From Balneolaceae bacterium (GTDB lineage: Bacteria > Bacteroidota > Rhodothermia > Balneolales > Balneolaceae), in NCBI GenBank assembly GCA_003561515.1, contig PWWL01000234.1:1-32431 (forward strand): a stretch of DNA of 32,431 nt, in the 5' to 3' direction. Shown piece by piece: positions 15,722 through 29,901 of the stretch. Within the stretch, counting starts at the first letter, position 1, and each line of letters opens with the position of its first letter. The notes under the pieces were generated by a model. The model did not search any database and was not told the origin of the DNA. It saw nothing but the letters and a program-made list of their open reading frames with translations. Made by a program: the position numbers and the translations under genes.

Positions 15722-16183
15722 ATGTACCTTTCAAAATCCTGCATACATGGGCTGAGAGCCGGAATTCTGCTTGCATCAAAGAACAGCAACAGTTTCGTTA
15801 CGATAAAACAACTGAGCAATGAACTGGATATCTCCTTTTACTTTTTGACAAAAGTGCTTCAGCAGATGACAAAGGCTGGGCTCCTGGAGTCGTACAAAGG
15901 ACCGAACGGTGGTGTTAAGCTTGCAAGAGAATCAACCCTGATTTCATTCATGGATGTGGTTGAAGCCATAGATGGCAAGGCATTGTTAGAAGATTGTGCC
16001 TTAAGCCTGCCGGGGTGTGGAATTCTTAAACCTTGTCCAATGCACGATCAGTGGTCGGTAATGAAACAGGAAATCTCAGCCATGCTGAATGATGCGACTT
16101 TAGAAAAACTCGCAGAAATGAACTATGCAGTAAAGAATCCAGGTGCAGAGATTGATCAATTACATAAAAAGAGTTTTTTTTAA
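15722..16183 (+). CDS. Rrf2-family Fe-S transcriptional regulator (NsrR/IscR-like), nos locus
   Basis: A 153-residue Rrf2 regulator. The N-terminal winged helix includes LSKSCIHGLRAGILLA, ISFYFLTKVLQQMTKAGLLE and the wing YKGPNGGVKLARE. The cluster-binding loop is DCALSLPGCGILKPC: three cysteines spaced C-x6-C-x5-C, as in cluster-bearing NsrR/IscR relatives that sense NO or cluster status. Only 34 bases separate it from the cytochrome c gene, so it is probably the first gene of an rrf2-cytochrome-nosZ operon and regulates it. A dyad that could be its own operator lies just upstream. NO sensing is a natural guess for an N2O-respiration locus, but is not shown by sequence. Confidence 0.85.
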   Translation: MYLSKSCIHGLRAGILLASKNSNSFVTIKQLSNELDISFYFLTKVLQQMTKAGLLESYKGPNGGVKLARESTLISFMDVVEAIDGKALLEDCALSLPGCGILKPCPMHDQWSVMKQEISAMLNDATLEKLAEMNYAVKNPGAEIDQLHKKSFF

Positions 16184-16217
16184 TTATATCAGATTTACGA
16201 CTCCTTAGTATTTTATT

Positions 16218-16694
16218 ATGAAGAATATAACACTCCTTACAGCAGCTGTCTTCATCTCCCTAACAATTACCGCTTGCGGTGAATCGGATGCACCGGCCGA
16301 TCGTGATCGGTCTGAAGCGCCTGCCCAAGAACAAGGGCTCTCTGAGTTTGAGGTGGAGCACGGCATTGGTCCAGTAACTGAAAGGGTTGAAATCGGAGAC
16401 GGTTTCGATCAGGCTATGGTGGATAAAGGCCGCAACATCTACGAGATGAAATGCGAAATGTGCCACAACTATGAAGGCCGAATGGTAGGGCCGGAGCTTG
16501 GAAATGTGCTGGAAAGGCGCAGTCCTGAGTTTGTAATGAATTTTATTCTGAACCCGGGCGGCATGGCCAGGGACCATCCGGTTGGGCAGGAACTGCTCAG
16601 GGAATACATGACAATCATGCCATTTCAGAATGTGAAAGAAGATGAAGCCCGCGCCATAGTAGAATATTTGCGCTACTACGCGGAACACAATTAA
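16218..16694 (+). CDS. Lipoprotein cytochrome c of the nos cluster
   Basis: A 158-residue class I monohaem cytochrome c. The signal peptide ends in the lipobox ITAC (Cys20), giving a membrane-tethered periplasmic protein after an acidic, Ala/Glu-rich linker. The haem site is KCEMCHN (Cys79, Cys82, His83), and Met134 in YMTIMPFQ is the likely distal ligand. Between them is the family's GPELGNVLERRSPEFV segment. It sits 32 bases before nosZ and 34 after the Rrf2 gene, so all three are probably co-transcribed. It is the likely electron donor to NosZ, as cytochromes c encoded in other clade II nos clusters are thought to be. It is not clearly equivalent to Wolinella NosC1 or NosC2. Confidence 0.9.
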   Translation: MKNITLLTAAVFISLTITACGESDAPADRDRSEAPAQEQGLSEFEVEHGIGPVTERVEIGDGFDQAMVDKGRNIYEMKCEMCHNYEGRMVGPELGNVLERRSPEFVMNFILNPGGMARDHPVGQELLREYMTIMPFQNVKEDEARAIVEYLRYYAEHN

Positions 16695-16726
16695 CAATCC
16701 TAAACCAACAATTAATCAACAAAACG

Positions 16727-18706
16727 ATGACTAAACAAAAATCAAAAAAACTGCGCGGACTTCTGCTGGGTGCAGGATTTGTGGCTGTAGCCGCATTTGT
16801 CTTTACGGGATGCCCGTCACAGCAGAGCATGCTTGACAGGGGAAGCGCAGCAGAAAAGGTTTATGTGGCACCGGGAGAACATGATGAATATTATGGATTC
16901 TTTTCGGGTGGATACAGCGGTCAGCTAAGCGTATGGGGTTTGCCCTCAGCACGATTCCTGAAAGTAATTCCGGTATTCTCGCAGGATCCGGAAACCGGTT
17001 ACGGTTACTCTGAAGAGACCAAGCCGCTGTTCAATACAAGTTACGGGTTTATACCCTGGGATGATTCCCACCATCCGCACATCTCTCAGACCAATGGAGA
17101 TGCTGACGGACGATGGATTTTCATCAATGCGAACAATACACCGCGAATTGCGAGAATTGACCTGAAAACATTCGAAACCAAAGAGATCCTGGAGCTGCCT
17201 AACACCGGCGGTAACCATGCTTCTTCGTTTGTTACTTCAAACACCGAATATGTAATCGGCGGAACCCGGTTCAGCATTCCTTACGAGCAGGATCTTGATG
17301 TGCCTATCGACAGTTACAGCGACAGTTTCCGTGGTGCGCTATCGTTCATCAAGGTAGATCAGAATAGTGGTATGATGGACCTGGATTTCCAGATCGTTGT
17401 GCCTCCGTATAACTATGACCTTGGTCGTGCAGGCAAGGGCCCGTCGGCCGACTGGGTATTCTTTACCACCTACAACACCGAAGAAGCGCACACCATGCTT
17501 GAAGTGAATGCTTCCAGAAACGACAAGGATTTTATCGCCGCCGTTAACTGGAGAAAAGCAGCCGAGCTGGTAGCCAACGGACATGGCAGAACCGTGCCTG
17601 GCGAATACTATCACAACTATTATGAAGGAAACCAGGGCTATGCTGTGTCTGAAAGGAAAAATGGTGTAACCATCCTGGATACGCGTGAAATTGATGAAGA
17701 CTTCATCTACTACCTGCCAACTCCGAAATCTCCGCACGGTGTGGATGTTGACCCGACCGGTGAATTCATCGTAGGCGGCGGCAAGCTTGCCACAATCATT
17801 CCGGTTCATTCGTTTTCAAGAATGCTTGAGGCTATTGATGCAGGCGCTGTTGTTGAAAGAATTGACGGAATTCCCGTACTGGATTACGATGCAACCATTA
17901 TCGGTGAAGTAGAGAATCCCGGCCTCGGCCCGCTTCACACAGAGTTTGACGGCCGCGGATATGCCTACACCTCGGTGTACATCTCTTCCGAGATTGTTAA
18001 GTGGTCGCTAGAAACTTTTGAGGTAGTTGACAGAATCGATGCTTATTACTCTATCGGTCACCTGATGATTACCGGTGGCGACACTAAAAACCCGGATGCA
18101 CGGTATCTGGTAGGTCTTACCAAAACTGCCAAAGACAGGTATCTGCCAACAGGGCCAAAGCAGAACCACCCTGCCCAGCTGTATGATATCAGCGGAGACA
18201 GAATGGAGCTTCTGCTCGACTTCCCGACCATTGGCGAGCCTCACTACGCGCAGGAGATCCGTGCCGACAAGATCAAGGACAATGTAGCCCAGATCTATGA
18301 AATGGAAGACAACGACCATCCGCATGCACTCAGAAGAATTGCCGACAACCGCATCGAAAGAGAAGGTAATGTGGTAAGAGTATTTATGGGAGCAACAAGA
18401 AGCCATTTCCGTCCGGATAACATTGAAGGAATACGGGTAGGCGATACGGTTTACTTCCACCTCACTAACCTCGAGCAGGAGTGGGATGTGGTACACGGTA
18501 TTGCAATCAAGGGCGCCCAAAACTCTGAGATCCTGGTAGCACCGGGTCAGACCAAGACCATGAAGTGGACCCCGACCAGAACCGGAATCTATCCGTTCTA
18601 TTGCACCGCATTCTGTTCAGCACTCCACCAGGAGATGCAGGGATATGTGCGGGTATCTGCAGCCGATTCGGATGTAGAACTGACCTGGAGAACAGGAACC
18701 AATTAA
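16727..18706 (+). CDS. nosZ: Nitrous oxide reductase, clade II (Sec-type)
   Basis: A 659-residue copper enzyme reducing N2O to N2 in the periplasm. The N-terminal part is the seven-bladed propeller holding the CuZ cluster: WDDSHHPHISQTNGDADGRW supplies His115, His116 and His118 with the conserved 'DGR', and GNHASSF, SPHGVDVDPTGEF and LGPLHTEFDGRG carry further ligands. The C-terminal cupredoxin domain carries CuA: FYCTAFCSALHQEMQGY gives Cys626, Cys630, His634 and Met637. The signal peptide has no twin arginine (a Tat RR motif marks clade I); it ends in FTGC, so export is by Sec and the protein may be a lipoprotein. No nosR is nearby, as expected for clade II. The gene is followed by strong stem-loops. 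Confidence 0.97.
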   Translation: MTKQKSKKLRGLLLGAGFVAVAAFVFTGCPSQQSMLDRGSAAEKVYVAPGEHDEYYGFFSGGYSGQLSVWGLPSARFLKVIPVFSQDPETGYGYSEETKPLFNTSYGFIPWDDSHHPHISQTNGDADGRWIFINANNTPRIARIDLKTFETKEILELPNTGGNHASSFVTSNTEYVIGGTRFSIPYEQDLDVPIDSYSDSFRGALSFIKVDQNSGMMDLDFQIVVPPYNYDLGRAGKGPSADWVFFTTYNTEEAHTMLEVNASRNDKDFIAAVNWRKAAELVANGHGRTVPGEYYHNYYEGNQGYAVSERKNGVTILDTREIDEDFIYYLPTPKSPHGVDVDPTGEFIVGGGKLATIIPVHSFSRMLEAIDAGAVVERIDGIPVLDYDATIIGEVENPGLGPLHTEFDGRGYAYTSVYISSEIVKWSLETFEVVDRIDAYYSIGHLMITGGDTKNPDARYLVGLTKTAKDRYLPTGPKQNHPAQLYDISGDRMELLLDFPTIGEPHYAQEIRADKIKDNVAQIYEMEDNDHPHALRRIADNRIEREGNVVRVFMGATRSHFRPDNIEGIRVGDTVYFHLTNLEQEWDVVHGIAIKGAQNSEILVAPGQTKTMKWTPTRTGIYPFYCTAFCSALHQEMQGYVRVSAADSDVELTWRTGTN

Positions 18707-18720
18707 CCTAAGAACCCCTC

Positions 18721-18748
18721 GTCCCGGTACCTGCTATGGGGCCGGGAC
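18721..18748 (+). terminator. Stem-loop downstream of nosZ (1)
   Basis: The arms GTCCCGG and CCGGGAC pair over seven bases around a 14-base loop, starting 14 bases after the nosZ stop. No T-tract follows, so it may stabilise the nosC-nosZ transcript end or attenuate transcription instead of stopping it. Confidence 0.5.
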
Positions 18749-18759
18749 ATATGATCCAA

Positions 18760-18787
18760 CCCGGGTCCGGCCGACGCCGGATCCGGG
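18760..18787 (+). terminator. Strong stem-loop downstream of nosZ (2)
   Basis: A 12-base-pair stem, all pairs filled with one G-U wobble, with the tetraloop CGAC: 5' arm CCCGGGTCCGGC, 3' arm GCCGGATCCGGG. It is followed by ATATTTATACCTTTTG, a weak T-rich tail. This is the best terminator or mRNA-protecting structure in the nos cluster and would separate cytochrome/nosZ expression from the maturation genes. Confidence 0.6.
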
Positions 18788-18859
18788 ATATTTATACCTT
18801 TTGTTCTTTGATTTGATGATGGTGGTGAAACCCTGAGCGGGAGAGTGGGTGAAGAACAT

Positions 18860-19070
18860 CCCCTCTCGAGAGGGGAAAGAATCAAAGAAGAATGCGTAGC
18901 ACTGCTTCTGAGATTCAGGGGTGTGTTCTCAGTTATGGCAGGATCTCTATCGATTGGAGACTCCCTGCCCGCGCAACACACCCCTGGGCTTCCCAAGCAA
19001 CACTTCGTGTTCTTGTTCTGCCCGTCCCCTCTCCCCGATGGGTCGGGACGCAAACGCAAGAGGGGATTTC
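18860..19070. repeat. Foldback repeat, copy A
   Basis: A repeat of about 210 bases shared with 24027-24272. It starts with the palindrome CCCCTCTCGAGAGGGG, continues with a long imperfect inverted repeat (GCTTCTGAGATTCAGGGGTG and TGTT opposite AACACACCCC and TGGGCTTCCCAAGC), a small hairpin ACACTTCGTGT, and ends CAAGAGGGGATTTC, which is complementary to its start. Open frames across it on either strand are products of the repeat. The form suggests a small foldback or MITE-like element with no coding capacity. It fills the nosZ to membrane-protein gap. Confidence 0.7.
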
Positions 19071-19148
19071 CTACCCCCACTCCCCCTATCCCCCCACTCA
19101 ACACACCACCCCCATCATCAAACCAAACAACATTTTAAATGAAATTCA

Positions 19149-19727
19149 ATGAACTGGAAATCGAGAATATTAATGGCGGTGGGTGCCCTGATGCTGATCG
19201 GGTTGTATTACCAGCCGTTCTGGACCATCAATATGTCGGCACCGCAGTACCCGGAGGGTATTGGTATGTACATCCATATTGATGATGTAACCGGCCATAA
19301 GCGGCACGACCTGCAAAGCATCAACACGCTGAACCACTATATCGGAATGGCAGAAATTCATAAAGAGGATTTTTGGGAGTTTGAAATCATGCCGTGGATT
19401 ATCGGTTTTATGATTGTTTTCGGTGTGCTGGCAGCGGTAAAGGGAAGTGTTAAACTGGTGATTACCTGGCTTGTGCTGATGGTACTGCTTGGTATTGCCG
19501 GCCTGGTAGATTTCTACCTATGGGGCCATGAGTATGGAAATAACCTGAGCCCGGATGCACCCATCAAGGTGCCGGGAATGAGCTATCAGCCGCCGCTGAT
19601 TGGCTGCAAGCAGCTGCTAAACATCAACGCGTGTTCGTGGCCGTATATCGGATCCATCTATATCGGCTTGTCGATGGTGTTTGCCGCCGGGGCCGTGTTG
19701 ATTGGAAAGAAGGATAATCTGAAATGA
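19149..19727 (+). CDS. Four-helix membrane protein of the nos cluster (unknown function)
   Basis: A 192-residue protein with about four membrane segments (residues 8-24, 83-102, 106-128 and 166-187) and two extracytoplasmic loops. The first loop contains GMYIHIDDVTGHKRHDLQSI with several histidines; the second holds two cysteines in LIGCKQLLNINACSW. It lies between nosZ and nosL, the position in which many clade II clusters encode a small polytopic protein; Wolinella NosB is one example, but I cannot show homology to it. The histidines and cysteines would suit a copper- or haem-related role. The start follows a stretch without a clear SD site. Confidence 0.6.
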   Translation: MNWKSRILMAVGALMLIGLYYQPFWTINMSAPQYPEGIGMYIHIDDVTGHKRHDLQSINTLNHYIGMAEIHKEDFWEFEIMPWIIGFMIVFGVLAAVKGSVKLVITWLVLMVLLGIAGLVDFYLWGHEYGNNLSPDAPIKVPGMSYQPPLIGCKQLLNINACSWPYIGSIYIGLSMVFAAGAVLIGKKDNLK

Positions 19728-19763
19728 GACTAATGAATAGACAATTGAATAGACAATGAATCT

Positions 19764-19884
19764 CCCCTCCTTTTTAAGGAGGGGCCGGGGGTGGTTGACC
19801 GGACTTGTTCAGGTAAGAGTTTACAGAATCAAATTAACAGTCCTTTTTGAACCAACCCTTAATCCCCTCCTTAGGAAGGAGGGG
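19764..19884. repeat. BIME-like composite palindromic element (between membrane protein and nosL1)
   Basis: Two palindromes face each other. The left is CCCCTCC-tttttaa-GGAGGGG followed by GGGGGTGGTTG; after about 55 bases comes AACCAACCC and a second palindrome CCCCTCCTTAGGAAGGAGGGG. The inner GGGTGGTT and AACCAACC blocks are inverted relative to each other, so the whole 121-base element can fold into a branched structure. The same plan is found at 23065-23179. The layout resembles bacterial interspersed mosaic elements built from paired REP units. Confidence 0.7.
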
Positions 19885-19942
19885 AGACATTGTTAACCAG
19901 AAATTTGAATCGATACATAAACACAAAAACAATAAACGAATC

Positions 19943-20494
19943 ATGGGGAAAAGGATCATAACAATAACAACAGCTGTCATTTTTATGACAGCACTATTTG
20001 CAACAGGCTGCAGCGAAACCCGCGTGGAGGAGAATTCGGTATTTCTCTACAAAAATTCTGTTGATATCAGCTATGGAAGCGATGTCTGCAGTTTTACCGG
20101 GAAGACCATCGAAACGGTGCGTTACGGCGGAAAAATTACCATGAACGACGGCACCGAACACATGTTCATGTCGGTGGAATGCATGGCCGGGTTTTACCTT
20201 GGGCTTGCAGAAAAGAACAAGGTAACCGAAATGGTAACGGTTGATTTTGCTCACGGACAGCAGTTCGTACCTGTGGACAAAGCTGTATATCTGAGAAGCC
20301 ACTTGCGGCCCAGCCCTAACGGCATGAACCTGACGGCAGTGGATGCATCAAACGAAAAGATGAAGACCTACATCTACGACGCCTATCCGGGTGAATACCT
20401 GTCATGGAACGAGGTTCTCGATCTGGTGAAAGACGAATGGAACCTGTTATTGAGCGAAATTACAGAAGAACAAAGAACTCTCCCTTCCTTATGA
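19943..20494 (+). CDS. nosL: NosL-family lipoprotein with altered copper motif
   Basis: 183 residues from the ATG at 19943. A longer in-frame start at 19847 lies inside the palindromic repeat, and the 19943 start gives a proper lipoprotein signal, FMTALFATGC (Cys23). NosL is a copper chaperone for NosZ maturation. The family body is recognisable: a Cys near the N-terminus (DVCSFTGKTI), HMFMSVECMAGFYLG, and FVPVDKAVYL followed by SPNGMNLTA. However, the CxxC-x-M copper site of typical NosL is reduced to a single Cys49 in DVCSFTG, while the next gene keeps it intact. Its last codons and the TGA stop lie in a palindromic repeat. It may bind copper differently or be a specialised partner of the second NosL. 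Confidence 0.8.
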   Translation: MGKRIITITTAVIFMTALFATGCSETRVEENSVFLYKNSVDISYGSDVCSFTGKTIETVRYGGKITMNDGTEHMFMSVECMAGFYLGLAEKNKVTEMVTVDFAHGQQFVPVDKAVYLRSHLRPSPNGMNLTAVDASNEKMKTYIYDAYPGEYLSWNEVLDLVKDEWNLLLSEITEEQRTLPSL

Positions 20495-20504
20495 AGGAGG
20501 GGAC
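20480..20504. repeat. Palindromic repeat overlapping the nosL1 stop codon
   Basis: A palindrome of the CCCCTCC/GGAGGGG family (CTCCCTTCCTTA-TGAAGGAGGGG). It supplies the last three codons and the TGA stop (20492-20494) of the first nosL gene. The repeat has therefore either inserted at the gene end, or the stem is used as a terminator within the coding end. Confidence 0.6.
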
Positions 20505-20555
20505 TTTAATTGTAGCAAAAAAGTTTTGAAAATTTCAAAAGTAAATAAATAGGTG

Positions 20556-21041
20556 ATGACCATGAGGGGTGGATCAATCCTGAAAATATTCATTGTTACG
20601 GCAGTTCTGATAACGGGCTGTGAACCAACTCCGCAGCCAATAGAACTGGGAAGCGACCAGTGTGCCTACTGCAGGATGATGATCACCGAGCAGGAGTTCG
20701 GATCACAGGTTCTCAATAAACAGGGACGATCATTCAAATTCGATTCCGTAGAGTGCATGGCCGCCTTCGACCTGACTGATGAGCAGGTGGAAGTCCACTC
20801 AAAATGGGTGCCCGATTTCCTGAACAGGGATACCTGGCTTCTGGCCGAAGAAGCCCGCTACCTGCACAGCGAAACCCTTCGAAGCCCGATGGGGATGTAC
20901 CTTTCTGCCTATGGCTCAAGAGAGGACGCTGAGCGGATGAAAGAAGAATACGGCGGCAGCATCCTCAGCTATGAGGAAGTGCGAAGCCTGGTAAGAGAGG
21001 AGTGGCTCTCGGGCAACAGAAACAATCACATGCACCATTGA
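20556..21041 (+). CDS. nosL: NosL-family lipoprotein (canonical copper motif)
   Basis: About 161 residues. The start is one of GTG 20553, ATG 20556 or ATG 20562; 20556 is chosen. A lipoprotein signal ends VLITGC (Cys22). The canonical NosL copper site is present: DQCAYCRMMI (Cys36, Cys39, Met41, Met42), followed by FKFDSVECMAAFDLT and the family's LRSPMGMYLSAYGSREDAER. NosL delivers Cu(I) to apo-NosZ in the periplasm. It is 11 bases upstream of nosD and likely co-transcribed with nosD-nosF. It is the second of two tandem NosL genes; the pair probably arose by duplication. Confidence 0.9.
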   Translation: MTMRGGSILKIFIVTAVLITGCEPTPQPIELGSDQCAYCRMMITEQEFGSQVLNKQGRSFKFDSVECMAAFDLTDEQVEVHSKWVPDFLNRDTWLLAEEARYLHSETLRSPMGMYLSAYGSREDAERMKEEYGGSILSYEEVRSLVREEWLSGNRNNHMHH

Positions 21042-21052
21042 GGAATCCTGGG

Positions 21053-22294
21053 ATGAAACAGACAGCATGTATATTTTTCACCGTACTGATATTTATGACA
21101 GCGGTGTCCTCAATTGAGGCGCAGATCACAGTGAGTCAAGATGGTGAACACTCATCGATCGCTGAAGCGGTCAGCATGGCTATGCCCGGCGATACCATCA
21201 CCGTTACCGAAGGCATCTACCGCGAACACGACATCCGTATCAAAAAGCCATTGACCCTGGTTGGTGAGGGACGCCCGGTGATTGACGGCGGAGACAATGG
21301 CTATATCATTCTGATCACGGCCGACAGCGTAACGGTAAGCGGTTTTGAGATCATCAACACGGGACGGAGCTATATCCGCGACTATGCGGCGATCATGATT
21401 GAAAAGGCGAGCGATTTTGTGATTGAGGATAACCGGCTCGATAACGTCTTCTTCGGCATCTACCTTGCCGAGACAAATCGCGGTGTGGTTCGCAATAATC
21501 ATGTAGAATCGTACGACAGACGCGAGGCCTCATCGGGCAACGGAATTCACCTCTGGAATGTGAAAAATCCTGTGATCGAGAATAACCGTGTTACGGGAAT
21601 GCGCGACGGTATCTATCTTGAATTTGCTGAGAATGCCCGGATTATGGGGAACATCAGCAATGACAATAACCGCTATGGCCTGCACTACATGTTCTCGAAC
21701 GGTGGCGTTTACTACGAAAACACGTTCCGCAGAAACGGGGCCGGCGTGGCCGTAATGTACTCCGAAAATGTGGATATGAAGAACAACCGGTTTGAGAACA
21801 ACTGGGGCGCAACATCGTACGGGCTGCTGCTGAAAGACATCCGCAACAGCACCATCGAAGGCAACCGTTTCTACAGGAACACCACCGCCATCTATTCGGA
21901 AAGTTCAAGCAATATTCTGATCAGGCGAAACGATGTGGAGCTGAACGGCTGGGCGGTGAACATCAAATCGAGCAGTGCGCGCAACCGGTTTGAAGAGAAC
22001 AATTTTATTGAGAACAGTTTTGATGTGCGCACTGACAGCCCGCGAAACAACAACCATTTTGAAGGGAATTACTGGAGCGCCTATGAGGGCTATGACCTGG
22101 ATCGCGACGGAATAGGAGATGTGCCCTACCGGCCGGTGAGCCTCTTTTCGATCATCATCGACCGGCAGCCCGAATCGCTGATCCTGATGAGAAGCATGTT
22201 TATTCGCCTGCTCGACACCGCCGAGCGCATTGCACCGGTGCTGACGCCCAAAACCCTTTTTGATGAAAAACCGAAAATGACGAGAATCCAATGA
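21053..22294 (+). CDS. nosD: NosD, periplasmic copper-site maturation protein
   Basis: 413 residues from the ATG at 21053, which is preceded by a good signal peptide context (MKQTACIFFTVLIFMTAVSS, cleavage near SSIEAQ). An earlier in-frame start would overlap the nosL gene. The body is a right-handed beta-helix of the CASH/periplasmic copper-binding type, visible as repeating units such as NRLDNVFFGIYLAETNRGVV, NRVTGMRDGIYLEFAENARI and NRFENNWGATSYGLLL. NosD works with NosFY in building the CuZ site of NosZ. The tail FEGNYWSAYEGYDLDRDGIG is the conserved C-terminal family segment. Its stop overlaps the nosF start in ATGA, so the two are translationally coupled. Confidence 0.93.
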   Translation: MKQTACIFFTVLIFMTAVSSIEAQITVSQDGEHSSIAEAVSMAMPGDTITVTEGIYREHDIRIKKPLTLVGEGRPVIDGGDNGYIILITADSVTVSGFEIINTGRSYIRDYAAIMIEKASDFVIEDNRLDNVFFGIYLAETNRGVVRNNHVESYDRREASSGNGIHLWNVKNPVIENNRVTGMRDGIYLEFAENARIMGNISNDNNRYGLHYMFSNGGVYYENTFRRNGAGVAVMYSENVDMKNNRFENNWGATSYGLLLKDIRNSTIEGNRFYRNTTAIYSESSSNILIRRNDVELNGWAVNIKSSSARNRFEENNFIENSFDVRTDSPRNNNHFEGNYWSAYEGYDLDRDGIGDVPYRPVSLFSIIIDRQPESLILMRSMFIRLLDTAERIAPVLTPKTLFDEKPKMTRIQ

Positions 22295-23061
22295 TTGAGA
22301 TCAGAAATTTAGAAAAATCGTTCGGCGACCTACGGGTGCTGAAGGGAATGAGCATCGAAATTCCGAAAGGCCAGGCCACGGGCATAGTGGGGCCGAACGG
22401 TACCGGAAAAACAACGCTCATAAAAACCATTCTCGGTCTTGTAAAACCGGGTTCTGGTGAGATTCATGTGAATGGCATCAAACTGAACGGAAACTTTGAG
22501 TACCGAAAAGATATCGGCTATATGCCGCAGGTGGCCCGCTACCCGGAAAACATGCGGGTAAACGAGCTGCTTGAGTTCATCAAGGGATTGCGGGACCAGG
22601 AGGCGGTGTATGAGGAGGAGCTGATTGATCAGTTCTCGCTCCGCTCCGAGCTGGAGAAGCCGCTGCGTACGCTTTCGGGAGGAAACCGCCAGAAGGTGGG
22701 TGCCACGCTGGCGATGATGTTCAATCCGGACATTCTCTTTTTTGATGAGCCCACAGCAGGGCTCGATCCGCAGTCGAGCCACAAGTTCAAGCAGCGGGTT
22801 CAGAAAGAGAAGGAGAACGGCAAAACGGTGATCATCACCTCACACATCATGAGTGAGCTGGAACAGCTCGTGGATCATGTGATCTTTATCCTTGACGGAA
22901 AGATCCGCTACTACGGCTCCATGAAGGCCCTCCTCGAAGAGAGCAGGGAGGAACGCCTGGAGGCCGCCATTGCCAGGATGATGGACACGACCGGTGAAGA
23001 ACCAGTTCAAAAAGAAGAAAATGGAAGTTTATTAATGACTAAAAAATTGGAGACTGCTTAA
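22291..23061 (+). CDS. nosF: NosF, ABC transporter ATP-binding protein for NosZ maturation
   Basis: A 256-residue ABC ATPase. Walker A is GPNGTGKTTLIKTI (residues 34-47), the Q-loop is YMPQVARYPENM, the signature is LSGGNRQKVG, Walker B is PDILFFDEPTAGLDP, and the switch His lies in IITSHIMSELEQ. This is the standard NosF arrangement. Together with NosY it forms the transporter that energises NosD-dependent assembly of the CuZ centre; the exported substrate is thought to be a sulfur species. The start codon overlaps the nosD stop. The extra C-terminal 40 residues, rich in Glu and Lys, are not part of the ABC core. Confidence 0.92.
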   Translation: MIEIRNLEKSFGDLRVLKGMSIEIPKGQATGIVGPNGTGKTTLIKTILGLVKPGSGEIHVNGIKLNGNFEYRKDIGYMPQVARYPENMRVNELLEFIKGLRDQEAVYEEELIDQFSLRSELEKPLRTLSGGNRQKVGATLAMMFNPDILFFDEPTAGLDPQSSHKFKQRVQKEKENGKTVIITSHIMSELEQLVDHVIFILDGKIRYYGSMKALLEESREERLEAAIARMMDTTGEEPVQKEENGSLLMTKKLETA

Positions 23062-23064
23062 AGT

Positions 23065-23179
23065 CCCCTCCTTTCCAAGGAGGGGATTTAGGGGTGGTTG
23101 GATCAAGGCTTACGAGTTGATATAAGCTCAAAACCAAAAAGAACCACCCTCACCTCTTCCCGAAAGCTTTCGGGAAGAG
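23065..23179. repeat. BIME-like composite palindromic element (between nosF and nosY)
   Basis: Same architecture as 19764-19884: a left palindrome CCCCTCC-tttccaa-GGAGGGG with the tail GGGGTGGTTG, a spacer of about 50 bases, then AACCACCC and a perfect 26-base palindrome at 23154-23179 with centre GAAAGCTTTC. It fills almost the entire gap between nosF and nosY. A stem-loop here could set the NosF:NosY ratio. Confidence 0.7.
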
Positions 23180-23201
23180 AAGCTATCCCGGAGGAAGCCA
23201 C

Positions 23202-23993
23202 ATGAAAAACTTAACACACATTATCAAAAACGAATGGCGCACCCTGCTGCGCGGCAAGTGGGTGGCGGGTTACGCGCTCATATTCCTGGTGCTCACCGAT
23301 TCGCTGCTGCGATTTGGGGGAGGCGGAGCCGAAACCCTGCTTAGCCTCTCAAACGTGATGCTCCTGTTTGTGCCGCTGGTGAGCATGATCTACGGTATTT
23401 TATACATCTACCAATCGCGCGAATTTGTGGAGCTGCTGCTTATACAGCCGGTGAACCGGAGCGTACTCTACTGGGGACTTTTCCTGGGTATATCCACCCC
23501 GCTGATGGCGGCCTTTATGCTTGGCGCAGCGCTGCCGCTCGGCTGGCACGGCATCCTGATGCTCGACGGAGCGTCGTCGTTCCTGGTACTGGCACTGGGT
23601 GGCGTACTGACCCTGATCTTTGCATCGCTAGGATTTGTACTCGGGCTGATGTTCTACGAAGACCGCATCAAGGGATTCGGATTTACCATTGTGATCTGGC
23701 TCTTCCTGGCTATTTTGTATGACGGCCTGGTTCTGATGCTGGTATTCGCATTTGGCCAGTATCCCCTCGAGAGGTTCGTAATCGCCGTCTCGATGCTGAA
23801 CCCGATCGACCTGGCCCGGATCCTGGTGATGCTGGAGTTCGATATCTCCGCGCTGATGGGATACACCGGCGCCGTGTTCAGTCGCTTCTTCGGCAGTGCC
23901 ACAGGCAGCCTCACCGCCGCCGGCATGCTCGGTATCTGGCTCGCCGTACCGATGTGGTGGGGCCTGAGGGTGTTTAAGCGGAAGGATTTTTAA
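23202..23993 (+). CDS. nosY: NosY, ABC transporter permease for NosZ maturation
   Basis: A 263-residue integral membrane protein with about six hydrophobic segments; the first follows NEWRTLLRGKWVAGYALIFL. The pattern (R)-E-F-V-E-LLL-x-QPVNR-x-x-(L/Y)-W-(G)-x-F-(L/G) in EFVELLLIQPVNRSVLYWG is the standard ABC-2 type permease/NosY motif, and FYEDRIKGFGFTIVIWLFLA resembles the family's second cytoplasmic loop. It partners with NosF as the transporter required for CuZ assembly in NosZ. It stands 140 bases after nosF, behind a palindromic element, and is followed by the second foldback repeat. Confidence 0.9.
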   Translation: MKNLTHIIKNEWRTLLRGKWVAGYALIFLVLTDSLLRFGGGGAETLLSLSNVMLLFVPLVSMIYGILYIYQSREFVELLLIQPVNRSVLYWGLFLGISTPLMAAFMLGAALPLGWHGILMLDGASSFLVLALGGVLTLIFASLGFVLGLMFYEDRIKGFGFTIVIWLFLAILYDGLVLMLVFAFGQYPLERFVIAVSMLNPIDLARILVMLEFDISALMGYTGAVFSRFFGSATGSLTAAGMLGIWLAVPMWWGLRVFKRKDF

Positions 23994-24315: not shown

Positions 24316-25341
24316 ATGACCCCAACCGACAAACGGCATGTTCGCACCTGGTACTGGACCGGCGCCGCACTTGTTTTCCTGATCCTTATCATCGGCGGTA
24401 TTACGCGCCTCACCGGTGCCTGGATGCCGATCTCTGACTGGGGCTCCATAATTGAAACTGTTCCACCGTTTAATGAAATACAGTGGGAAGAGGCTTTCAG
24501 TAAATTTCAGAATTTACCTGAATATCGGCAGATGGATATCAATATTTCGCTTTCAGAATTCAGGTCTATCTATTACCTGGAGTATATCAAGCGATTGGCC
24601 GGACTTTTACTGGGGTTCGTTCTTGTCGTTCCTTTTTTATGGTTCATAATCAAAAAGAAAATTGATTCAAGGCAAAGCGCAAGGGGTCTTATACTGATCG
24701 TACTTTGGGCAGGGCACTTATTTCTAAGCCTTAATATGGTTCAAACAGGCCTGACTAACGTTCTGCAGGTAAATCCATACCGTTATGCAGGCTACATTTT
24801 ACTCACATTTCTGATTTTTAGTTTATGTGTATGGTTCGCAAACGAACTGTACAAAAAAGGGAATAGCCAGATGCCTCCTGAAAGTGGTGAACTGCTGCAC
24901 TGGCTACGGGCTCTTTCGGTAGTGATTGTTTTGCAGGTTCTGTGGGGTGCATTGTTGGTAGGCCATCATGCAAGCCATATCTACAACACCTTCCCGAAAA
25001 TGAACCAGTTCTGGATGCCTCCCGAGCTCTGGATGCTTGAGCCCTGGATATCAAATTTCTTTTACAACATGAGCACCGTGCAGTGGATGCACCGCCTGCT
25101 GGCCACAATCCTGGGCGTGATGGCCATTGTGATGTGGGTGCGCACGCTGCAGATCAGGCCCGGCCGCACCGCAACCCTCTGGATGCTGGCTGTATTTAGC
25201 CTTGTGCTGCTTCAGTATGCCGTAGGCGTGTTTACGCTGGTTTACCACGTGCCGGTCTGGTTGGGGGTCACGCACCAGGCGCTGGCGATGGTGCTGTTTG
25301 GTGTTGTACTGGGCGCAATCCATCATATTTATTACCGCTGA
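24316..25341 (+). CDS. CtaA/COX15-like membrane protein with altered haem ligands
   Basis: A 341-residue protein with about eight helices and the full COX15/CtaA plan. GGITRLTGAWMPISDWGSI corresponds to the family's 'GGxTRLTgSGLSiteW', PPFNEIQWEEAF and the family's P-E-Y follow, and GHHASHIYNTFPKMNQFWMP matches 'rAGlxYNTFPlMdgrwvP'. COX15 makes haem A from haem O and has four conserved His. Both C-half His are present (His259 in QWMHRLLA, His320 in VTHQAL), but both N-half His are replaced: Lys92 in EYIKRLAG (family ExxHR) and Tyr160 in RYAGYI (family RLAxHL). The N-half is where catalysis is placed in CtaA. It is thus unlikely to be an ordinary haem A synthase; a haem-binding electron-transfer or assembly role in the nos locus is possible. 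The gene follows nosY. Confidence 0.75.
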   Translation: MTPTDKRHVRTWYWTGAALVFLILIIGGITRLTGAWMPISDWGSIIETVPPFNEIQWEEAFSKFQNLPEYRQMDINISLSEFRSIYYLEYIKRLAGLLLGFVLVVPFLWFIIKKKIDSRQSARGLILIVLWAGHLFLSLNMVQTGLTNVLQVNPYRYAGYILLTFLIFSLCVWFANELYKKGNSQMPPESGELLHWLRALSVVIVLQVLWGALLVGHHASHIYNTFPKMNQFWMPPELWMLEPWISNFFYNMSTVQWMHRLLATILGVMAIVMWVRTLQIRPGRTATLWMLAVFSLVLLQYAVGVFTLVYHVPVWLGVTHQALAMVLFGVVLGAIHHIYYR

Positions 25342-25438: not shown

Positions 25439-26620
25439 ATGAATAATAAGGTTTGGCAACTCTCATTACTAAGTTTCGTTGTAGCCGCGTTTACGGGGTT
25501 TTTGTACCGCTATGGCATGTTCTGGCCGCTGCCTGAGGGGATCGGGTTTGCCAACATCCGCCACGCCCATTCGCACCTGATGTTCTTTAACTGGGCAACC
25601 CCGCCGCTGATGGTATGGATGGCAACGGCAGTGGTGAACGGGAATGAGCAGCGCCTGTCTGCCCGGTTTGGCGCCTGCCTGTACACCATGCTCTTTCTCG
25701 GGTTTCTGTCCTATCCATTTTTCCTGCTCTACGGTTATCACTCCGTACCGATAGGTTCTGCATCGCTGCCTCTGGCGGCCATTATATCGGGACTGGTGAT
25801 GATTACCTGGTACTGGTTCATATGGCTGTACTGGAAAGAGAGGAAAACCACCGGCGACTCACTGCACCTTACCCTTTACGACGGCGCACTTATTGCCCTG
25901 GTCATAAGTTCTCTGGGGGCGTGGGGAGTATCGGTATTCCAGTTTACGGATATCGACAGCCCGCTGGTGTCGTCGGCCATGACCCACTTTTTCCTGGGCG
26001 TGTTTACGGAGGGGTGGGTGGTTATTGGCCTGCTTGGCATGATCTGGCACCGCGCGGGTGAACCCGCACTGCCGTTTGAAGCGTGGTGGCTATGGCTGCC
26101 GCTGCTATTCGGTTCCATGCTGGTATTTCCCTTCAGCCTCGATCGATCCATAATCACCCCGGCAATGCACCTTTCGGCCAATGCCGGACTGATTCTGATC
26201 GGGATCTCCACCGCGCTTCATCTTTGGCTGTTTGTGCGCCGGAAACTGCTGATCGGATTCCTGATGAAAACCGTGGCGGTGCTGATCGGCCTCAAGGTGC
26301 TGTTCCAGCTCATCGCCGTGCTGCCGTTCGGCATATGGCCGGGCGAACACGGCCTTCGGGTGCTTTACCTGCACCTGTTGCTGCTCGGTATCGTATCTCC
26401 CGTTCTGGTGGAGTGGTTCCACCCCAATCGCGAGAGGGCGGCAAAAACGATATTTACGCTTACCATACTTGCAGTCCTGGTTACCCTGCTCTTCATCAGC
26501 GGCTACTGGCCTGCTCAGCTAATGGTGCCCAATGTGTACCACTGGGTGCTGGTCGCCGCATTCCTGCCGGGGGTTCCGGCAGCGTGGCTGCTTGTTAAGG
26601 CCTTTCGCCCGGAAAGCTGA
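25439..26620 (+). CDS. Histidine-rich polytopic membrane protein of the nos locus (unknown function)
   Basis: A 393-residue protein with about 10-12 membrane helices. The most striking element is RHAHSHLMFFNWATPPLM (His42, His44, His46), and further histidines lie in or near helices: AMTHFFLGVFTEGW, TPAMHLSANAGL, LYLHLLLLG and EWFHPNR. This distribution recalls haem-copper or NnrS-like membrane proteins in which paired helix histidines hold metal or haem. No close family assignment can be made from memory. Its location directly after the CtaA-like gene, at the end of the plus-strand nos run, suggests a shared role, for example haem- or copper-linked electron transfer from quinol to periplasmic cytochrome c. 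That is inference. Confidence 0.55.
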   Translation: MNNKVWQLSLLSFVVAAFTGFLYRYGMFWPLPEGIGFANIRHAHSHLMFFNWATPPLMVWMATAVVNGNEQRLSARFGACLYTMLFLGFLSYPFFLLYGYHSVPIGSASLPLAAIISGLVMITWYWFIWLYWKERKTTGDSLHLTLYDGALIALVISSLGAWGVSVFQFTDIDSPLVSSAMTHFFLGVFTEGWVVIGLLGMIWHRAGEPALPFEAWWLWLPLLFGSMLVFPFSLDRSIITPAMHLSANAGLILIGISTALHLWLFVRRKLLIGFLMKTVAVLIGLKVLFQLIAVLPFGIWPGEHGLRVLYLHLLLLGIVSPVLVEWFHPNRERAAKTIFTLTILAVLVTLLFISGYWPAQLMVPNVYHWVLVAAFLPGVPAAWLLVKAFRPES

Positions 26621-28028: not shown

Positions 28029-28490
28029 ATGCTCTTATCAAAATCGTGTGTTTACGGGCTTCGGGCAACGCTCTACCTTGCATCAAAAGAGAAAGAGGAA
28101 TTTATTCCCATCAAGCGGATGAGCGAGAAGCTCGAAATCTCGTTCCACTTTCTCACAAAAATTCTCCAGCAGCTTACGGCCGATGGCCTGCTCGAGTCGT
28201 TCAAGGGTCCGAACGGCGGCGTGCGCCTGACCAAGGCTCCGCAGAAAATAGCGCTTATAGACGTGGTTCTGGCTATTGACGGACCCAAACTGCTTACCGA
28301 GTGCGCACTGGGTCTGCCGGGTTGCGGACTGAAAAATCCGTGTCCGCTGCACGACAAGTGGGCCGTTACCCGCGACAGCATCCGCGACATGCTGGCCAAT
28401 ACCTCACTTACCGACCTGGCTGAAAAGGGCAAAGCAGAAAACCTCAGGCTTACCGATGACGGGGATTTTGAGGAGCTGCTGAGAGACTGA
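28029..28490 (+). CDS. Rrf2-family Fe-S transcriptional regulator upstream of hemN
   Basis: A 153-residue paralogue of the regulator at 15722-16183, of equal length and alignable throughout. The winged helix shows LSKSCVYGLRATLYLASKEK, ISFHFLTKILQQLTADGLLE and FKGPNGGVRLTK; the cluster loop is ECALGLPGCGLKNPC, again C-x6-C-x5-C, followed by PLHDKWAVTRD. It ends 31 bases before hemN, suggesting an rrf2-hemN operon. It would link haem synthesis under low oxygen to the cellular Fe-S or NO state. Whether the two regulators read the same signal is unknown, but their putative operators are alike. Confidence 0.85.
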   Translation: MLLSKSCVYGLRATLYLASKEKEEFIPIKRMSEKLEISFHFLTKILQQLTADGLLESFKGPNGGVRLTKAPQKIALIDVVLAIDGPKLLTECALGLPGCGLKNPCPLHDKWAVTRDSIRDMLANTSLTDLAEKGKAENLRLTDDGDFEELLRD

Positions 28491-28521
28491 TTTACCGTAT
28501 CCCAAAAAAGGAGTTATGCCT

Positions 28522-29901
28522 ATGAAATTCAGAGAGAAAAGGTTGTTTGAGCTGGTTCAGAAATACAATGTACCCGGTCCGCGCTACACCTCGTATCCAA
28601 CAGCGGTACAGTTCACAGAGGAGTTTGATGATGCTGTCCTGGAGGAGGCACTGGATCTCCGGGCGGAATCGGCAAGGGCGGTGTCGCTCTATTTTCACAT
28701 TCCGTTCTGTTTTTCACTTTGCTGGTATTGCGGATGCACCAAAATAATAACGCGCGACCAAGACCGAGGCGACAGTTACCTCGATTACCTTGCGAAAGAA
28801 GCGGCGCTGGTTGCAAAAAGCCTGCACCCCGGCTCAGCCGCTAAGCAGATTCATTTTGGCGGCGGCACGCCTACGTTTTTAACACCCGCCCAGCTGCGAA
28901 GGTTGGGAGAGATCATCCATCGCTATTTTTCCGTTGATGAAGATGTAGAGTTCAGCGTGGAGATCGATCCGCGGCGCTGCACGGAGGAGCATATCATTGC
29001 ACTTAAAGAGATCGGGGTGAACCGTGCATCGCTGGGTGTTCAGGATACCAATCCCGAAGTTCAGAAGGCAATACGCCGTATTCAACCGTTCGAAATCACG
29101 AGGGAGGTAACCGGATATCTGAGATATCAAGGAATCGAGAAAATCAACTTCGATCTGATCTACGGCCTGCCGCTGCAGACACCATCTACATTTGCCCGCA
29201 CAATTGAGGATGTAACGGCCTTGGACCCCGACCGGTTTGCCATTTACAGTTACGCCCACATCCCGTCCATCATGCCGGCGCAGAAGCTCTTGAACCCGGA
29301 ACAGTTTCCGGCAACCGACGAGAAGCTGAAAATGCTGATGCATGCCATCGGCACACTGCCGGAATACGGGTACAGGTATATCGGTATGGACCACTTCGCA
29401 AAAGAGGATGACGAACTGAGCCTGGCACTCGACAACAGCACGCTTCAGCGGAACTTCCAGGGTTACAGCACCCGCGCAGAGCTGGAGATGATTGCGCTTG
29501 GCATGTCGGGAATTTCGCAGGGTGATGATCTGTACTATCAGAATGAGAAAGATCTTGGCCGGTACTATAAATTTCTGGATGAGGGGAGACTGCCTGTAGC
29601 AAAAGTGCTGCCTTTGACGGATGAAGACAAACTGAGGCGTAAAGTGATTATGCAGATCATGTGTCGCGGAGAGATCCATTTTGAGCAGTTTTACCGGGAG
29701 ACGGGTATCCGTTTTGAAGAGAAATTTTCCGGTGAACTTGAGAGGCTCAGGCCGCTCGAAGAAGACGGGCTGGTGGTGCAACATGTTGGCGGTTTTGATA
29801 TTACAGATACGGGACGGCTGTTTTTACGAAACGTTTCCATGCTGTTTGATGGTTATATAACTGAGGAACAACACAGAACTGCCTATTCGAAGACAGTTTA
29901 G
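28522..29901 (+). CDS. hemN: Oxygen-independent coproporphyrinogen III oxidase (coproporphyrinogen dehydrogenase)
   Basis: A 459-residue radical SAM enzyme that decarboxylates coproporphyrinogen III to protoporphyrinogen IX without oxygen. The N-terminal YNVPGPRYTSYPTAVQF is diagnostic for true HemN, as opposed to HemW. The cluster motif is FCFSLCWYCGC (CxxxCxxC plus the extra Cys), followed by HFGGGTPTFLTPAQLRR, SLGVQDTNPEVQKAIRRIQP and FDLIYGLPLQTPSTFARTI. The C-terminal HemN domain is present. The ATG at 28522 is preferred over the ATG at 28516 because AAGGAG at 28508-28513 lies 8 bases before it. It is likely co-transcribed with the upstream Rrf2 gene. It supplies haem for respiration, including the nos-linked cytochrome, under anoxia. 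Confidence 0.95.
   Translation: MKFREKRLFELVQKYNVPGPRYTSYPTAVQFTEEFDDAVLEEALDLRAESARAVSLYFHIPFCFSLCWYCGCTKIITRDQDRGDSYLDYLAKEAALVAKSLHPGSAAKQIHFGGGTPTFLTPAQLRRLGEIIHRYFSVDEDVEFSVEIDPRRCTEEHIIALKEIGVNRASLGVQDTNPEVQKAIRRIQPFEITREVTGYLRYQGIEKINFDLIYGLPLQTPSTFARTIEDVTALDPDRFAIYSYAHIPSIMPAQKLLNPEQFPATDEKLKMLMHAIGTLPEYGYRYIGMDHFAKEDDELSLALDNSTLQRNFQGYSTRAELEMIALGMSGISQGDDLYYQNEKDLGRYYKFLDEGRLPVAKVLPLTDEDKLRRKVIMQIMCRGEIHFEQFYRETGIRFEEKFSGELERLRPLEEDGLVVQHVGGFDITDTGRLFLRNVSMLFDGYITEEQHRTAYSKTV

Follow-up and report, generated by a model that had tools for sequence, protein, structure and literature searches.

What becomes of a haem A synthase when one of its two halves loses the residues that define it? 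CtaA/COX15 proteins are thought to descend from a duplicated four-helix unit, and the division of labour drawn between their N-terminal and C-terminal halves is based on few structures and mutants. The question is raised by a gene in the window, the 32,431-nucleotide stretch of Balneolaceae DNA analysed here, which comes from the assembly of an uncultured bacterium (G000; 408 contigs, 84% complete). The initial annotation had read in this gene the motifs EYIKR and RYAGYI together with H259 and H320 and had placed it after nosY in a nos locus. The open reading frame, the PF02628 match and the alignment bear out the residues, nosD, nosF and nosY do lie upstream, and the observation is real and unusual. 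The features concerned are:

15722 to 23993, plus strand: nos cluster upstream of the gene, with Rrf2, cytochrome c, Sec-type NosZ (TIGR04246, 887.7 bits), a TM protein, two NosL-type proteins, NosD, NosF and NosY
24316 to 25341, plus strand: COX15/CtaA-family protein classed as type 2, with a degenerate N-half (341 amino acids, ATG start)
24316 to 24855, plus strand: N-half, residues 1-180, the substrate/catalytic four-helix bundle, accelerated
24580 to 24594, plus strand: H1 motif EYIKR (E89 and R93 kept; H1 replaced by Lys92, codon AAG at 24589-24591)
24781 to 24798, plus strand: H2 motif RYAGYI (R156-Y-A-G-Y160-I; H2 replaced by Tyr160, codon TAC at 24793-24795)
24883 to 25338, plus strand: C-half, residues 190-341, the haem b cofactor bundle, conserved
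25090 to 25092, plus strand: H3, retained as His259
25273 to 25275, plus strand: H4, retained as His320
25439 to 26620, plus strand: downstream gene for a membrane protein of 393 amino acids with a haem-copper-oxidase fold in its AF2 model
28029 to 29901, plus strand: Rrf2 regulator and HemN-like gene, the conserved context of type-2 ctaA

The encoded protein matches the COX15-CtaA profile PF02628 with 256.8 bits (cut-off 29.9) over positions 1-321 of 322. Its AF2 model (pLDDT 86.9) has eight long helices. Among solved structures it comes closest to the haem A synthases 6a2j, with Z 23.8 across 282 residues, and 8aw5, with Z 20.1 across 244; both stand well ahead of every other row of the comparison, in line with the eight-helix, two-bundle fold of the superfamily. 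A phmmer search of the window protein against PDB sequences gave no match; a profile search gave 8aw5 and 6a2j. The gapless alignment of this profile to 6a2j puts the TM4 His several residues off, and ligand columns were read from the near gap-free type-2 alignment instead. In genome_contigs, a pattern query with the window protein sequence alone returned zero relatives, whereas an alignment query did find them, the closest named ones being mainly Balneolaceae metagenome assemblies. The sole Cys lies in TM4, the loops are free of Cys and of the loop-1 Cys pair, and the nearest relatives are cysteine-free orthologues of 46-55% identity; by these sequence features the protein is a type-2 (cysteine-free) CtaA.

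In the published picture the N-half houses the haem O substrate along with the catalytic Glu, whereas haem b belongs to the C-half (PMC8239418, PMC7327177, PMC13213658). H3 and H4 act as haem ligands (PMC12808453), and yeast Cox15 depends on all four His (PMC13213658). Where the window protein reads EYIKR and RYAGYI, its relatives read ExxHR and RLAAHL, and because the alignment is near gap-free there, K92 and Y160 sit exactly in the ligand columns; the claim that both N-half ligand His are gone therefore stands. Among 120 aligned rows, 80 of them loci from public genomes and with type-1C control included, column 92 holds His in 117, Asn in one type-1C control row and Lys solely in the window protein, while column 160 holds His in 116 and Tyr solely in the window protein and in one relative, G014. 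H1 is naturally His or Asn in the family (PMC12808453). The catalytic Glu of ExxHR is present as Glu89, and both haem b ligands are in place, columns 259 and 320 being His in 119 of the 119 rows that have a residue. Elsewhere the four-helix N-half has a single His, H134 of helix 3, at a position where Gln is otherwise constant; H8 lies at the N-terminus.

It had been proposed that these substitutions mark a clade restricted to nos clusters. We compared 19 genomes in which nos genes stand beside type-2 ctaA on the same stretch, and this proposal fails, because 17 of the nos-linked orthologues, including that of G015, the sister on the nos-gene tree, keep E89, H92, R93, H160, H259 and H320. The two exceptions read EKRYHH (window) and AHQYHH (G014) at these six positions. 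The K92/Y160 pair is private to G000 among the genomes compared; the G014 copy carries E89A, R93Q and H160Y, with the motifs AYIHQ and AAYL:

L032 9509 to 10522 (G014): second type-2 CtaA with a degenerate N-half

In a tree of NosZ, NosD, NosF and NosY (FastTree support values), G000 groups with G015 (0.995) and G014 falls inside G004/G008/G025. CtaA is intact in all these sisters, so two independent losses are indicated. Judged from the sequences compared, the N-half loss is local, it arose independently in G000 and in the sister species G014, and the substitutions are not the signature of a nos-specific clade. A tree of the N-halves does join the two degenerate proteins, yet their mutual identity is 27% and each is closer to canonical copies; the joining looks like long-branch attraction, and we rejected a common origin. 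We likewise rejected a recombination event in which another CtaA donated the N-half, as sliding identity revealed no better donor among the sequences compared. Across 129 genomes of the order, full-length type-2 copies score 301-371 bits, and below this range lie only G000 (256) and G014 (213); the remaining low-scoring matches are partial or frame-broken. One type-2 ctaA match, L051 5038-5853 (G058, contig C158), is reported with three internal stops, its surviving open reading frame starting within the N-half.

The change extends far beyond the ligands and is confined to one half. On 25 canonical type-2 proteins we defined 67 genus-invariant columns in the N-half and 35 in the C-half. The window protein has altered 27 of the former and 2 of the latter (Fisher p 1.6e-4), G014 39/67 against 0/35 (p 2.6e-10). 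Gone from the window protein are, among others, G36, L37, P44, G47, R97, Q134, G138 and W139, and the changes shared with G014 at invariant positions altered in both are H160Y and M77I. Terminal branches for the N-half and C-half measure 0.70 and 0.39 in the window protein and 1.74 and 0.11 in G014, compared with 0.16 and 0.41 in the canonical G015 copy (L004). Identity between G014 and L021 is 40% in the N-half and 88% in the C-half, with dN of 0.57 and 0.08; dS is 0.82 in the C-half and saturated in the N-half. As dS is saturated in most pairs, the contrast between the halves is one at the amino-acid level save for the closest pair. The flanking nos genes show ordinary divergence; G014 and G008 share 77-95% identity in these genes, compared with 39% in the CtaA N-half. 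One might suspect a sequencing, assembly or frameshift artefact in a genome broken into 408 contigs. We assign this a negligible probability, since codon-level substitutions run throughout the N-half within a single open frame, and the flanking NosZ, NosD, NosF and NosY are 71-88% identical to those of G015.

With its full profile match, eight helices, H3/H4, 6a2j/8aw5 fold and loops free of the Cys pair, the window protein resembles a type-2 haem A synthase; it differs in having Lys at H1, Tyr at H2 and more than a third of the invariant N-half residues replaced. Enzymes with H1 changed to Leu, or H2 changed to Leu or Met, are inactive yet retain haems b and o (PMC12808453), and since these mutants are inactive, loss of haem A synthase activity is predicted. 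With Lys at H1, Tyr at H2 and 40% of the genus-invariant positions of the N-half altered, synthase activity appears very unlikely, and we are largely convinced that the protein would prove inactive as haem A synthase. Lys and Tyr can serve as haem-iron ligands elsewhere, and E89 and R93 of ExxHR are kept, so that Lys92 and Tyr160 might be imagined as alternative axial ligands of an enzyme that is still a synthase. Such an enzyme strikes us as highly improbable: H1 is reported as His or Asn only and H2 mutants are inactive (PMC12808453), and the invariant N-half positions already listed are gone. The C-half, in contrast, probably still binds haem b via H259 and H320.

How can a bacterium afford this loss? 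Among the first-searched relatives, 58 of 59 have PF02628 proteins, and these fall in two classes. The first (about 300-371 bits, four His, loops without Cys) corresponds to type 2 under the published scheme (PMC8239418, PMC12808453). The second (about 150 bits) has a loop-1 Cys pair and the motif EY[IV]NR and fits type 1C; all full-length copies checked read EY[IV]NR, with Asn at H1. The family motif ExxHR of the initial annotation thus holds for the type-2 relatives and is not universal, as the type-1C CtaA of the same genomes departs from it. Type-1C CtaA belongs to the same superfamily and keeps the Glu and H2, with H1 naturally Asn; it differs from the window protein by its loop-1 Cys pair and its locus, and the two are about 18-21% identical. 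In relatives the type-1C ctaA adjoins ctaB, and in five loci (L035, L037, L043, L044 and L086) the two genes are arranged divergently, and their glycosyltransferase/methyltransferase flank is conserved. The canonical type-2 protein is itself very probably a working haem A synthase, because three near-complete genomes (G006, G012 and G033) have it as their only CtaA and yet possess ctaB and an aa3 subunit I gene. G014 carries type-1C ctaA, ctaB and ctaD. In the G000 assembly, ctaB and type-1C ctaA were not found, and a search of the same kind, run without positive control, did not find the flanking methyltransferase that is present in all five loci. The ctaD gene of G000 consists of two fragments at contig ends (C187, 5238 of 5238; C364, 11984 of 11985). 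Because none of ctaB, its linked ctaA and the methyltransferase appears in the assembly and ctaD is cut at contig ends, it is probable that the pair falls in an assembly gap. A true loss of type-1C ctaA from G000 is less likely, as ctaB and the conserved methyltransferase are missing too.

If the synthase became redundant, the gene could simply be on its way out, with the C-half lagging behind and serving no present function. The two independent N-half losses, with their different replacements and 27% mutual identity, do resemble relaxation more than a shared new function, and neighbouring genes of the locus are truncated or missing in relatives. Against such decay speak the intact frame and a hydropathy that is kept though about half of the N-half is replaced; moreover, the C-half evolves no faster than its canonical counterpart (0.39 versus 0.41, window branch), with invariant changes of 0/35 and 2/35. 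Neutral simulation to the observed N-half identity, crude because the whole divergence is assigned to one lineage, stayed free of stops in 6 of 500 runs for the window protein and in 1 of 500 for G014, and on average the strongly hydrophobic windows of the N-half then retained 41.5 and 26.5 residues, against 111 and 120 observed. According to this crude simulation, the N-half is still being maintained as a membrane bundle, without which the C-half could not be made. Because the C-half rate is normal on the window branch and hydropathy and frame are kept, these data favour a retained C-half role over simple decay, and we consider a gene without present function unlikely, though a serious contender.

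What the retained half might serve leads to the neighbourhood. The protein encoded at 25439-26620 has zero Pfam/NCBIfam match, while its AF2 model adopts the subunit I fold of haem-copper oxidases (Z 32.2 to cbb3 8smr_E, Z 30.1 to the nitric oxide reductase 4xyd) at 9-11% identity to these structures. It has an invariant RHAHSHLM in TM2, H183 in TM6 and H312 in TM10; TM7 lacks a conserved HH pair. The gene is conserved beside type-2 ctaA in many relatives, and the protein retains its conserved His whether the adjacent CtaA is intact or degenerate. In some relatives with intact CtaA the gene is missing or truncated; truncated copies beside intact type-2 ctaA lie at L057 12868-13779 (G002) and L063 4223-4875 (G026). 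The history of this gene was considered as the cause of the loss and rejected: its tree groups G014 and G002 with G000, but the CtaA of G002 is canonical. A search for NnrS (PF05940) gave zero matches, with the control empty as well. By analogy with the Geobacillus case cited below, the haem-copper-fold protein is a candidate client or partner of the window protein.

One could go further and assume a haem-b membrane protein repurposed for a selected role in the nos region, for instance by supplying NosZ maturation or the haem-copper-fold neighbour with electrons or haem. In both degenerate cases the nos cluster is complete and the gene lies between nosY and that of the haem-copper-fold protein, which keeps its conserved His in G000 and G014, and in Geobacillus a haem O oxygenase gene adjoins that of NOR, a haem-copper enzyme of denitrification (PMC3475470). 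Nevertheless, nos function needs no such change, as the 17 nos-linked orthologues with the full synthase motif set demonstrate, and the degenerate N-halves have hardly any new features in common (27% identity) save H160Y and M77I at invariant positions. We rate this reading as distinctly unlikely. The idea of a repurposed haem-binding protein for N2O reduction is hence only partly upheld: the conserved C-half fits a residual haem-b-type role, while the nos-specific part finds no support, its sole tie being gene neighbourhood, and in several relatives the stretch retrieved with type-2 ctaA contains no nos genes (L053, L054, L058, L059, L065, L066, L068 and L075).

On balance we lean, with some reserve, towards a pseudoenzyme derived from haem A synthase, still made as an intact eight-helix membrane protein and still under selection in its C-half. 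Direct observation covers the substitutions, the difference in rate between the halves, the separate origin of the two cases, C-half conservation and, in G014, type-1C ctaA together with ctaB and ctaD; redundancy in G000 itself would depend on the presumed gap. The genus ancestor would have had a four-His type-2 CtaA in or near the nos/HemN region, most genomes also having a ctaB-linked type-1C CtaA. Redundancy may then have freed the N-terminal bundle from its catalytic duties twice, once in the lineage of G000 and once in that of G014, leaving it only the needs of membrane insertion, while the C-terminal bundle would have stayed under purifying selection. The type-1C enzyme would supply haem A to the aa3 oxidase, in G000 from genes presumably hidden in the gap. 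What remains of the C-half would most likely be a membrane b-type haem protein that serves other membrane haem proteins as a partner or as a redox/haem carrier. A bolder version, which we offer as a long shot, is that in two Balneolaceae lineages a redundant synthase has become a dedicated haem-b protein working with the family-less haem-copper-fold neighbour, with the N-half as scaffold and the C-half as working part.

A literature search of open-licence papers gave no report of a nos-linked or pseudoenzyme CtaA. The closest parallel is the halobacterial type 1A* CtaA, in which H3 is Phe; there, too, a key His is missing and activity is doubted, but the loss concerns the C-half and a whole clade (PMC12808453), whereas here it concerns the N-half in two single lineages. 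The family assignment itself carries a warning, as 'haem A synthase' at the Pfam level can mislead. The comparison also brings to light a conserved pair of ctaA and a haem-copper-fold gene beside nos clusters. Two natural proteins in which the N-half alone is degenerate provide an evolutionary test of the division of labour between the halves: the C-half would have value without synthase activity, or at least the two halves can decay independently.
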